Positions 4,197 to 60,336 of a stretch of DNA of 64,000 nucleotides are shown one piece after another. The stretch comes from Planctomycetaceae bacterium (lineage in GTDB: Bacteria; Planctomycetota; Planctomycetia; Planctomycetales; Planctomycetaceae). Position 1 is the first letter of the stretch. Each line of letters opens with the position of its first letter. The DNA is taken from contig JAQWSQ010000201.1 in assembly GCA_029243145.1 (NCBI GenBank), forward strand, positions 1 to 64,000, given 5' to 3'. The notes under the pieces are model-generated. The model ran no database searches and was not told the origin of the DNA. It saw only the letters and a list, made by a program, of their open reading frames with translations. The translations under genes and the position numbers were made by a program.

Positions 4197-5657
4197 TCAG
4201 TGTTCTGTTCCTTCGGCGTCGGCTTCCATTTCGACTGCGTGTGCCGTCGGCGCATCTTCGTCCTGAATGTAGGTTTTCCCTTGGTAAGTCTTCACGACAT
4301 ACAAAAATCCAACGGCTGCCACAAACATGCAGCCTGTGAAGAACCAGTAATAATCGGCCCCCGGCAAGCGACTTGTCCCGTCGCTTTTTTCGATCAACAA
4401 GTTCACGATGGCTGTGAACTCGTTCCCGGCCGCAACCGACAGCAGATACAGCGACATGATGACCGACTTCATGCTGTTGGGAGACTGCGTGTAGGAGAAT
4501 TCGAGACAGGTGATGGAGACCATCACCTCGGCGGCGGTGAGAATGGCGTACGCGAGCACCTGCCAACCGATGCTAGGTGTCTCTCCCGCAGAAATTTGTG
4601 TTTCGATCCAACCACTCACCGAAAACGCGACGACTGCGAGAAACATGCCGATCGCGATTTTTCGGAGTGGTGTCAGGCCGAACGATTTATCAAGAGCGGG
4701 ATAGATGACATACGCGAACAGGGGAACAAACATCAGGATGAAGAAGGGATTGGTTGCCTGAAGTTGTGAAGGGAGCACTTCGATGACTTTCCCGAACAAG
4801 TTTACTTCCAGATCCATATTTTTCGCTTGTAAGACCCAGGCAGACGCCGTTTGATCGAACAGACACCAGAACATCGCCACGAAGGCATAGATTGGCAGAA
4901 GTCTGAGAATCGCGAGCTTACCTTCCCCCGTGAAACAGTCTTTGAAGAGTTCTTTACCGCGTGCTGGAACATGGACGAATGTGTTGCGTCCCATCCAGAA
5001 CACGACAGTCGCAATGGCCATCAAAATTCCAGGGACTCCAAACGCTAACGATGGTCCAGGAGTGAGCCATGCGACGTCTCGCAAGCCTTCTCCAAAGACT
5101 TCGTAAAAGCGTGTTTTATTCAGCAGGATGGGTGTCAGTAACGTCGAAAGAAACGCACCCAAGTTAATGGCCACATAAAACCACCCAAAGATTTTGGGAA
5201 GCAAATGTTTGTTGCGAGTACCAAATTGGTCGCCCACGTGCGCAGAAACACAGGGTTTGATGGCCCCCGTTCCGATGGAAATGAGTGCGAGACCGATTCC
5301 CAGTCCCCAGCGAGTCTCGTCCATTGCCAAGCAAAAATGTCCGAGGCAATAGACAATCGACAACAATAAGATCGTTTTGTATTTTCCGAAGAGCCAATCG
5401 GAAATCAGCGCACCCGCCAGTGGAAAGAAATACGCCGCCACCACAAATGTATGCACCCAGAACCTCGCTTGAGGATCGGACATCGCTTCGACTTCACCAT
5501 CCGCGCCTAGCAGATATTGAGTCATAAAGACGGTCAGAATCGCCTTCATCCCATAGAAACTGAAACGCTCGGCGGCTTCGTTGCCGACAATATAGGGAAT
5601 TCCGGGTGGCATGCCTTCGATATCGAACGGCTTGGTGGCGTGTTTGGTTTCGCTCAT
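4197..5657 (-). CDS. POT/PTR2-family proton-dependent peptide transporter
   Basis: 486-residue multi-pass inner-membrane transporter of the proton-dependent oligopeptide family, expected to import di- and tripeptides. The family signature ExxERFxxYG is present near the N-terminus ([16 protein letters not shown]). About 12-14 hydrophobic helices follow, and the tail is short and acidic. An open frame extends 23 codons further upstream, but the ATG at 5657 is preferred: it overlaps the stop of the prolyl oligopeptidase gene as ATGA, a sign of translational coupling, and gives a normal family N-terminus. Linkage to a secreted peptidase fits a peptide-scavenging operon. Substrate cannot be told from sequence. 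Confidence 0.88.
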
Positions 5658-57371: not shown

Positions 57372-57953
57372 ATGACGACAATATCCCACTCCCCTTTTTC
57401 CACTTCGACGGGTTTGCTGCGCCAGATGGGGCAGTTCGATCCACGGGCTTGGGAGCGGTTTACGAAGATCTATGGAGGTCTCGTCTATTGCTGGGGGCGT
57501 CAATTTGGTCTGTCACCGGAAGATGCGTCTGATCTGGTCCAGGAAGTCTTTCAGTCTGTCCTGAAGGCCATTGATCGTTACGAGCATCAAAGCTTTCGTG
57601 GCTGGTTATGGACGATCACTCAAAATTGCGTACGAGATCGTGAGGGAAAACCCTCGGTCGATCGGACTCCCCGTGGTGGCAGCGATTTTCAGTCCTTTCT
57701 GCAGAGCATCCCCGAGCCTGAAGATCTCCATCACCCACTGACTCGACAAAGCCAGGCGTTCCTCTTACGGCAAGCACTCGAACAGATTCGATGCGATTTT
57801 GAAGAACATACTTGGCAAGCGTTTTGGCGTCTCGCCGTCGATCATCATCCCGTTGCAGAAATTGCCTCAGATCTGAAGTTGACCGAAGTCGGTGTTCGGC
57901 AGGCAAAATTTCGTGTTTTACGTCGGCTCAAGGAAGAGCTCGGACGAATTTAG
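57372..57953 (+). CDS. ECF-type RNA polymerase sigma factor
   Basis: 193 residues. Region 2 is visible as FTKIYGGLVYCWGRQFGLSPEDASDLVQEVFQSVLKAIDRYEHQS and FRGWLWTITQNCVRDR; region 4 as EEHTWQAFWRLAVDHHPVAEIASDLKLTEVGVRQAKFRVLRRLKEEL with a helix-turn-helix. It directs RNA polymerase to an unknown regulon. Planctomycetes have ECF groups linked to Ser/Thr kinases, and here a kinase gene follows 160 bases later, but that kinase is broken. The ATG is the first in frame with the family N-terminus. Confidence 0.88.
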   Translation: MTTISHSPFSTSTGLLRQMGQFDPRAWERFTKIYGGLVYCWGRQFGLSPEDASDLVQEVFQSVLKAIDRYEHQSFRGWLWTITQNCVRDREGKPSVDRTPRGGSDFQSFLQSIPEPEDLHHPLTRQSQAFLLRQALEQIRCDFEEHTWQAFWRLAVDHHPVAEIASDLKLTEVGVRQAKFRVLRRLKEELGRI

Positions 57954-58117: not shown

Positions 58118-58816
58118 ATGACCGATTACATCGACAAATTACTGGCTGACTACGAAGAACAGCACGGTACTGCCACCAACGCAGATGATCCGTCGACCGT
58201 TTCGTTGCATAACTTGATTGATGAACTTGATGGCTACATGGGTTTGCTTCAAGTGCCTCTGCCTGAAAGCGAATGGAGTTATCTTCAGGAAGGTGAGTGT
58301 GAGCAGGCGATTGCCGCCGCTTCTCATCTTCTCGAACGGTCCGTCGACGAGGCGGGTTACGTCTCCCGCGATGACCAGAATCGCGTGGGGAGTTCGATTG
58401 GTAATTATCGGTTGGTGGCCCATTTGGGTTCCGGCGGCATGGGGGCCGTCTATCGGGCGATCAATCTTTCCCTCAACAAAGAGGTCGCCCTTAAAACTCT
58501 CCCCGCCCACCGGATGAAGAATCCCAAAGCGGTCTCTCGCTTCCAGCGAGAAATGCGTGCCATTGGGAAGTTGGATCATCCCAATATTGTTCGCGCGTTG
58601 GATGCCGGGGAAGCGGACGGGCAACCCTTTTTGGTCATGGAGTTGATGGAAGGTGTGAATCTTTCGTCGCTCATTCGTCAATCGGGAACATTATCCATTC
58701 CCGATGCCTGCGAAGTGATCAGGCAAGCCGCAATTGGCCTCCAGTATATTCATGATCAAGGTCTCGTTCATCGAGATGCCCCCAAGCAGAGGACTTCTTT
58801 CATCGTGCGGGTGTAG
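58118..58816 (+). pseudogene. Ser/Thr protein kinase truncated in the catalytic loop
   Basis: From ATG 58118 a 232-residue product can be read. After an N-terminal domain of about 95 residues the kinase fold begins: NYRLVAHLGSGGMGAVYRA (glycine loop), VALKTLP (Lys of VAIK), FQREMRAIGKLDHPNIVRALDAG, FLVMELMEGVNL and LQYIHDQGLVHRD. It breaks after HRD at about 58776; the following codons (APKQRTSF...) match the antisense of the neighbouring propeller gene, and the catalytic-loop Lys/Asn, DFG, APE and the whole C-lobe are missing. The gene cannot make an active kinase. A kinase cytoplasmic domain plus C-terminal membrane segment is the usual layout for planctomycete kinases beside ECF genes. Confidence 0.82.
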
Positions 58817-60336
58817 ATGCGGCCGTTACTATAAACGGGTTGGGTGAGGCTCCAGGTTTTCCCGGCCTCTCCGAGATCATTGATGGAAAGCAAGGCGGCT
58901 TCATTGAAATCCTCTGCGTGGATGTCGATGACATAGGTCGTGCCGAGCATTGTGGTCACGTACAACTTGTCGCCGACACAAATGGGTGTCGCTGCGGAAA
59001 CGTGTCCCCAACCGGTTCCCTTGGATCGTTTATCGACGATGCCGACATCGACACCGCGTGAGTTTTGCGTGTCATTGACAATGGCTTTGTCCCACAAAAG
59101 TTGATCTGGTTGATTGTGTTCCCGGACCACTTGCAAAGGGACTTCGAGATACTCGACGCGGCCTGTTTTCACATGGATACGACCGAGATAATGTGATTCA
59201 TGCGTCATGAAGTAATGGTGATCGCCGACAAGTAAATTGGCCATGTTGGTTGTCGGCGTGTCGTTGGGTCTGCGGTTGATTTTCAGTTCGGCATTTTCAT
59301 GACTCTGCCAACGATTTTGTGACCGATTAAAATCATACCGGGTGATGTTCTGGTCCAGAGGTTGATTGGCGATGAGCTTTCCGGTGTTGGTATCGACCAC
59401 GAGATGATTGGGACCCTCAAACCAACAACAGACTTTTTCGTTCCAGGTGGCCGTGTAGTGGGAACTTCCCTTCGAGATTTCATAAGTCCACAGTGTTTTG
59501 CCGGGCGTTTTTTCGGAAAGGCTCGTCAGGCCAAAGCCGTACGGCTTCTCGGGGGGAGCATGTCCGCCCCCTCGACCGTGCAAGATGGCGAGCTCTCCAT
59601 TGGCCAGATGACCGATAGAGGGAGTGTTATGCACTGCGGTCCCCGCTTCGGCCACCCACTTTAGTTTGCCCGTCAACTTGTCGTAAGCATGCAAGTACAT
59701 CCAATACTGTTTGGGATCAACTCCAGGAGGAAGCGGCTTGTGCATTCCGACATCGGCTCCCTGTTTGTTGAGCACTTCGACAAACAACAAGGTGTCGCCA
59801 TACAAAATTGGTTCAAACTGACGTGAGTGATGACGGGTACGCGGTTGCCAGGCGCGTGTCCATATTTTCTGGCCGCTGTGATCCCAGCAACCCATAAACC
59901 CACTGGCATTAAAGAACCAGACATGCGTGTCATCCGTCACGGGGGAAGGAGAGGTGGAATCGCTGAAAATCCCGGCATACTTCAGTGGTCGCACACCGGG
60001 CAATTCAACCTGCCACAAGATATCGCCGTTGTTTGCATCGAGACAGAAACCAATCGCATCGGAGCCCATCGGAGTTTTGGTCGAATCTTCTGGCCAAGGC
60101 GTGTTGGTCGTCGTAAAGAGCTTATCGTTCCAGACAACAGTGCAGCTTTGCCCGCTTTCGGGAAGCGGAGTTCTCCAGAGGACATTCTGATTTCTCGCGA
60201 CGCTCCATTGAGTTGGTGAGTCACCTGCTACCTGATAATTTCCGTGGGGACCAGCCGCTTGATACCAATGGGGCGTTTCGGCGAAAACCTGGCGACCTAT
60301 CATGACTCCGAGTAAGCAGGTAAGAAGAAATCGCAT
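58768..60336 (-). CDS. PQQ-like beta-propeller protein
   Basis: 522 residues with a signal peptide (MRFLLTCLLGVMIGRQVFA), so periplasmic. Repeated PQQ-type blades are visible, e.g. GFCLDANNGDILWQVELPG, LHAYDKLTGKLKWVAEAGT and LVVDTNTGKLIANQPL. These domains form an eight-bladed propeller; here no enzyme cofactor site is obvious, so a scaffold or non-catalytic role is likely. It converges on the truncated kinase: its last few residues and stop codon (LGASR then TGA) are partly read from kinase DNA, so the last codons were lost or changed at the junction near 58777. Confidence 0.82.
   Translation of the reverse strand: MRFLLTCLLGVMIGRQVFAETPHWYQAAGPHGNYQVAGDSPTQWSVARNQNVLWRTPLPESGQSCTVVWNDKLFTTTNTPWPEDSTKTPMGSDAIGFCLDANNGDILWQVELPGVRPLKYAGIFSDSTSPSPVTDDTHVWFFNASGFMGCWDHSGQKIWTRAWQPRTRHHSRQFEPILYGDTLLFVEVLNKQGADVGMHKPLPPGVDPKQYWMYLHAYDKLTGKLKWVAEAGTAVHNTPSIGHLANGELAILHGRGGGHAPPEKPYGFGLTSLSEKTPGKTLWTYEISKGSSHYTATWNEKVCCWFEGPNHLVVDTNTGKLIANQPLDQNITRYDFNRSQNRWQSHENAELKINRRPNDTPTTNMANLLVGDHHYFMTHESHYLGRIHVKTGRVEYLEVPLQVVREHNQPDQLLWDKAIVNDTQNSRGVDVGIVDKRSKGTGWGHVSAATPICVGDKLYVTTMLGTTYVIDIHAEDFNEAALLSINDLGEAGKTWSLTQPVYSNGRIYTRTMKEVLCLGASR

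Follow-up and report, generated by a model that had tools for sequence, protein, structure and literature searches.

The ECF sigma factors that are linked to kinase genes include: (i) the groups ECF59, ECF61, ECF62 and ECF217 of Planctomycetes (PMC8999054), and (ii) ECF43, in which the kinase activates the sigma factor. Of the ECF43 type, EcfP of the Vibrio parahaemolyticus EcfP/PknT pair is phosphorylated on a threonine of sigma2.2 (PMC8999054), and EcfK of Xanthomonas citri is activated by its kinase PknS (PMC13147305). Kinase pseudogenes next to ECF factors in Planctomycetes were also sought in the literature, without a relevant result.

The locus considered here lies in a window of 64 kb (the whole stretch of DNA that was analysed) out of the 105.7-kb contig C220 of an uncultured planctomycete, G000, whose draft assembly comprises 5.2 Mb in 232 contigs and is 97.6% complete. 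An intact ECF sigma factor gene is followed by a kinase gene that breaks off within its catalytic domain and runs tail to tail into a convergent PQQ-propeller gene, very probably as the result of a local deletion in the G000 lineage that truncated the kinase gene and joined its stump to the PQQ gene. The features of the locus are:

57372..57953, plus strand: intact ECF sigma factor gene, 193 aa, with sigma2 and sigma4 (PF04542, E 8e-12)
58118..58816, plus strand: truncated kinase ORF, 232 codons, with a partial PF00069 match
58768..60336, minus strand: PQQ-like beta-propeller gene, 522 aa, essentially full length (PF13360, E 2e-10)
58768..58816: overlap of the two convergent frames, 49 bases, made by the junction
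58778..58781: the junction, GCCC, four bases that fit neither parent (from the blastn breakpoints and a three-way view)

The kinase ORF starts at ATG 58118 (alternatively TTG 58106), stops at 58814-58816 and is free of internal stops. By profile search, it matches PF00069 only over positions 1-123 of 263 (E 5e-26), with the match breaking off directly after HRD. The stump retains the P-loop, the ATP-binding lysine and HRD, and is missing the KxxN, DFG and APE motifs, the membrane segment and the C-terminal sensor-like region; as such, it falls short of a complete Hanks-type catalytic domain (P-loop, HRDxKxxN, DFG and APE). Because KxxN, DFG and APE are missing, the stump should be catalytically dead, judged from its sequence and the established biochemistry of Hanks kinases. 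The kinase-derived DNA ends at 58777, after 220 codons, and the remainder of the ORF is antisense of the PQQ gene, with a stop codon that lies wholly in PQQ-derived DNA. An earlier note on this DNA had proposed that the kinase C-lobe was lost beside an intact ECF, and this is supported. The genome of G000 (97.6% complete) has no ortholog of the missing part when searched, and relocation of the C-lobe within G000 is rejected on this ground; the strongest matches are ~36-43% identical and come from other kinases.

A full-length ortholog is present in G002, a genome of the same genus and the nearest relative compared (DNA identity 82-87%):

L044, 199-2658, minus strand: full-length kinase ortholog of G002

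This is the sole whole-length match to the kinase ortholog among 84,980 named species genomes (JAURQH010000002.1, isolate SFB_South_Co_60). Contig C43 of G002 carries the amt (ammonium transporter)-ECF sigma-kinase block as in the window. The kinase of this block has a catalytic domain that covers profile positions 1-253, along with a hydrophobic segment and ~350 C-terminal residues that match no family; relative to it, the G000 kinase is shortened by ~560 codons. Contig C32 of G002 carries the PQQ-glycosyltransferase-aminotransferase block, also in the gene order of the window. The kinase-side and PQQ-side flanks, thus, sit on separate G002 contigs, and we infer their adjacency before the deletion from the shared gene order. 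Full-length kinases are taken as the ancestral state, on which the direction of change depends. The genus sample besides G000 consists of two genomes, G001 and G002; the ECF-kinase block is without a DNA match in G001. The truncated and full-length states are each represented by one genome only. The earlier note had called for a search of relatives for an intact kinase/ECF pair, and one is found on G002 C43; the same compact kinase end was also sought in relatives and was not found.

The junction is defined by blastn of the window against G002, which aligns the kinase side up to 58777 to C43 (82.5%, E=0) and the PQQ side from 58782 to C32 (82.9%, E=0). The final kinase-homologous base is 58777 and the initial PQQ-homologous base is 58782, a break in homology that is far beyond chance and, together with the intact pair in the sister genome, upholds the earlier reading of a deletion-type junction at ~58777. 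With four unassigned bases and at most 2-3 bases of microhomology, the join looks illegitimate in type. Scaled on G002, the removed DNA amounts to ~1.67 kb of kinase coding sequence, a short spacer and ~130 bases of the PQQ side (at least ~1.8 kb, plus any intervening DNA). Both G002 contigs terminate in mobile elements at the deletion interval: the C43 end is an IS5-family end that occurs in 15 places in G002 and has no match in G000, and the C32 end has an ISAs1-family fragment and a ~127-bp repeat that occurs many times in both genomes. As both contigs break in IS elements, IS sequence probably occupied the interval in G002, and the DNA between the two genes is seen only in part. The ~127-bp repeat (L045:273-399) is noted in dozens of G002 places and more than 12 in G000, often at contig ends, and probably represents one end of an IS3-like element at which the assemblies break.

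The PQQ gene gained a new end at the junction. Its stop (complement of TCA, 58768-58770) and last two codons reside inside kinase-derived DNA; the kinase origin of the stop claimed earlier is therefore correct, and the claim that it is only partly so is not. The PQQ homologs of other genomes end in ...EVVCIGD, ...EVICIGE and ...ELICIGKSK, at the same point as ...EVLCLGASR of the window, which rules out a meaningful truncation of the PQQ gene. The G002 protein ends in ...EVLCLERQQPGPFPNQ, a ten-residue tail; this tail is the most that the PQQ protein has lost, and the protein is essentially unharmed. Thus, of the two gene ends that were thought to be lost, that of the kinase is gone and that of the PQQ gene is not, apart from the tail.

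The deletion is proposed on the grounds that in G002 this ECF is followed by a complete kinase and the PQQ gene keeps its neighbours, and that homology breaks at 58777/58782. The absence of the missing kinase part from G000, the frequency of kinase genes behind related ECFs in the phylum, the constraint on the stump and the shared end point of the PQQ homologs also speak for it. A local deletion of at least ~1.8 kb would remove the 3' two thirds of the ECF-associated Hanks-type kinase gene and, in the same event, the stretch up to the convergent PQQ gene, where IS elements reside in the sister species. The illegitimate join would then make each frame stop in the antisense of the other gene, leaving the kinase as a stump, the PQQ protein essentially unharmed and the adjacent intact ECF without its cognate input. 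The sister ortholog is intact, the loss is local and the flanking order is kept, with the G002 flanks on separate contigs; this is ordinary pseudogenization by deletion, with no novel type of system involved.

The deletion is probably recent, as the stump resembles a protein under selection. Compared to G002 by the Nei-Gojobori method, the dN/dS of the stump is 0.11 (95% bootstrap 0.06-0.19) and that of its kinase-domain part 0.06 (0.02-0.13), with values elsewhere of 0.031 (ECF), 0.10 (aminotransferase) and 0.10 (PQQ gene). On the assumption that the stump has evolved neutrally ever since it was cut, neutral drift would account for at most ~1/10 to 1/4 of the G000-lineage branch, estimated from a dN/dS of 0.06-0.13 summed over two branches. 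A stump that is still constrained would give similar values; a recent deletion is the simpler reading.

Other kinases of G000 are also cut. A PF00069 scan of this genome gives 33 matches, in which the kinases of contigs C161 and C89 end in the same stretch as that of C220:

L143 (G000:C161:1-12000), 1281-2952: second cut ECF-linked kinase, HRDIKFSNIMLGRDGMIK, then unrelated sequence
L199 (G000:C89:35000-46000), about 5575-5632, plus strand of the locus: third cut kinase, with a convergent neighbour

The C161 kinase adjoins an ECF, is cut just past the catalytic loop (PF00069 match ending at profile position 138) and overlaps the 5' end of a small ORF that encodes a secreted, Cys-containing product; its G002 counterpart (C35) is an intact 819-codon frame. 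The C89 kinase ends just before the catalytic loop (match ending at ~115-123) and meets a convergent zinc-ribbon/coiled-coil gene tail to tail. This convergent gene is ~85 codons shorter than its counterpart on G002 C55, and the junction is the second of the kinase-PQQ type in G000. Three further candidates are set aside: (i) C121, which looks like a naturally divergent kinase with HCDLNPDN and IIDFGSS motifs, (ii) C177, which looks like a frameshift, and (iii) G002 C68, a different event that apparently fused the kinase in frame with a formylglycine-enzyme-like tail. The G002 C68 kinase (L201, G002:C68:21000-31223; reverse complement, about 4379-4981) breaks in this same region (AEAHEIG), where a longer gene has apparently lost an internal segment in frame; the tail was identified by eye.

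As a control, three finished genomes of the family give 143 PF00069 matches, none of which is a short N-lobe-only ORF; the partial N-lobe matches in these genomes lie within long frames. G001 has no such cut kinase and G002 has one, of a different kind. The cut kinases (3/33 in G000 versus 0/~143 in the finished genomes) give a hand-computed Fisher probability of ~0.006 for a cluster that was noticed after the fact by a scan that favours mid-domain cuts. The cluster is suggestive, a lead and not a finding, and among the kinase truncations of G000 only the clustering is unusual. That the kinases of this lineage are repeatedly cut at helix E-catalytic loop, leaving N-lobe stumps beside ECFs or convergent genes, is highly improbable; if true, it would point to a deletion hotspot in catalytic-loop DNA or to selection for N-lobe non-catalytic ECF regulators.

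The junction could also be an assembly artefact, in which a chimeric join or collapsed gap left an intact kinase C-lobe unassembled or unbinned. The assembly is a draft of 232 contigs, IS elements break the contigs of the sister assembly at this interval, and two other G000 kinases also end abruptly; however, the junction is mid-contig with the expected neighbour and orientation kept, the ortholog of the C-lobe is absent from every other G000 contig, and there is no repeat at the junction to confuse a k-mer graph (positions 58300-59300 match elsewhere in G000 over only 148 bases at 71% and 68 bases at 74%). An assembly error is thus unlikely. Where the deletion is accepted, an IS element may have caused it, through transposition of an intervening element or recombination between copies. 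This route is rather doubtful: IS elements flank the gap on both sides in G002 and the repeat of one of them is also present elsewhere in G000, but no IS end or scar is found at 58777-58782, both breakpoints are within or at the edge of genes and outside the IS positions of G002, and the IS5-type element of G002 is unmatched in G000.

The stump may instead be retained under selection as a functional N-lobe fragment, for example a non-catalytic partner of the ECF. Its open 232-codon frame and dN/dS of 0.11 fit such a role, as does the cut near the catalytic loop in the second ECF-linked kinase (C161), although the catalytic loop of the latter stump is altered (HRDIKF). A recent deletion accounts for the constraint with no need of a function, the break lies within the fold, at the catalytic loop, with half of the C-lobe left over, the residues added at the new end are random antisense sequence and the short form is seen in no relative; retention for function is thus very unlikely. 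Recent pseudogenization by a local deletion is the reading preferred here.

The ECF scores above the TIGR02937 cut-off, is 95% identical to its G002 C43 counterpart and has the kinase gene directly 3' on the same strand, with 165 bases between; no anti-sigma factor gene is seen adjoining it. Related ECFs of the phylum commonly have a kinase gene immediately downstream (32 ECF homologs in loci L026-L135). The sigma2.2 motif is DASD, with a Ser at the residue that corresponds to the EcfP threonine and both Asp retained; this motif speaks neither for nor against a switching of the ECF through phosphorylation by the kinase. In 15 of the 32 kinase-linked planctomycete ECFs this motif is DAAD instead of the canonical DAED, and in the genus of G000 it is DASD. 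An EcfP-like phospho-Ser switch is weakened as a group-wide mechanism, since the kinase-linked relatives mostly have Ala at that residue and phosphorylation there is, thus, not the rule of the group. The cognate kinase of the intact ECF is probably lost, and the ECF most likely no longer gets its signal. PknT and PknS are activators of their sigma factors, and on this precedent the regulon of the ECF would most likely not be inducible. The lineage would then offer a planctomycete ECF-kinase pair whose kinase has been lost naturally. This type of regulation is little tested in the phylum, and what becomes of an ECF deprived of its kinase would reveal whether that kinase has an activating or a restraining role.

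The deletion represents a routine case of genome decay. Similarly to other pseudogenes formed by illegitimate deletion between convergent genes, the locus has a 3' loss, a new junction, an intact sister and a flanking order that is kept; it does not differ from these in substance, and two further G000 kinases are similarly cut. The EcfP/PknT and EcfK/PknS systems (ECF43) are alike in pairing a sigma factor with a Hanks-type receptor kinase; however, ECF43 factors lack the acidic DAED residues and use a phospho-Thr instead, whereas the ECF described here keeps both Asp (DASD). The kinase-linked ECF systems of Planctomycetes resemble the locus in gene arrangement: the sigma gene is likewise followed, on its own strand, by the gene of a Hanks-type kinase, and no anti-sigma gene adjoins it. 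By contrast with these groups, the kinase of this locus is truncated.
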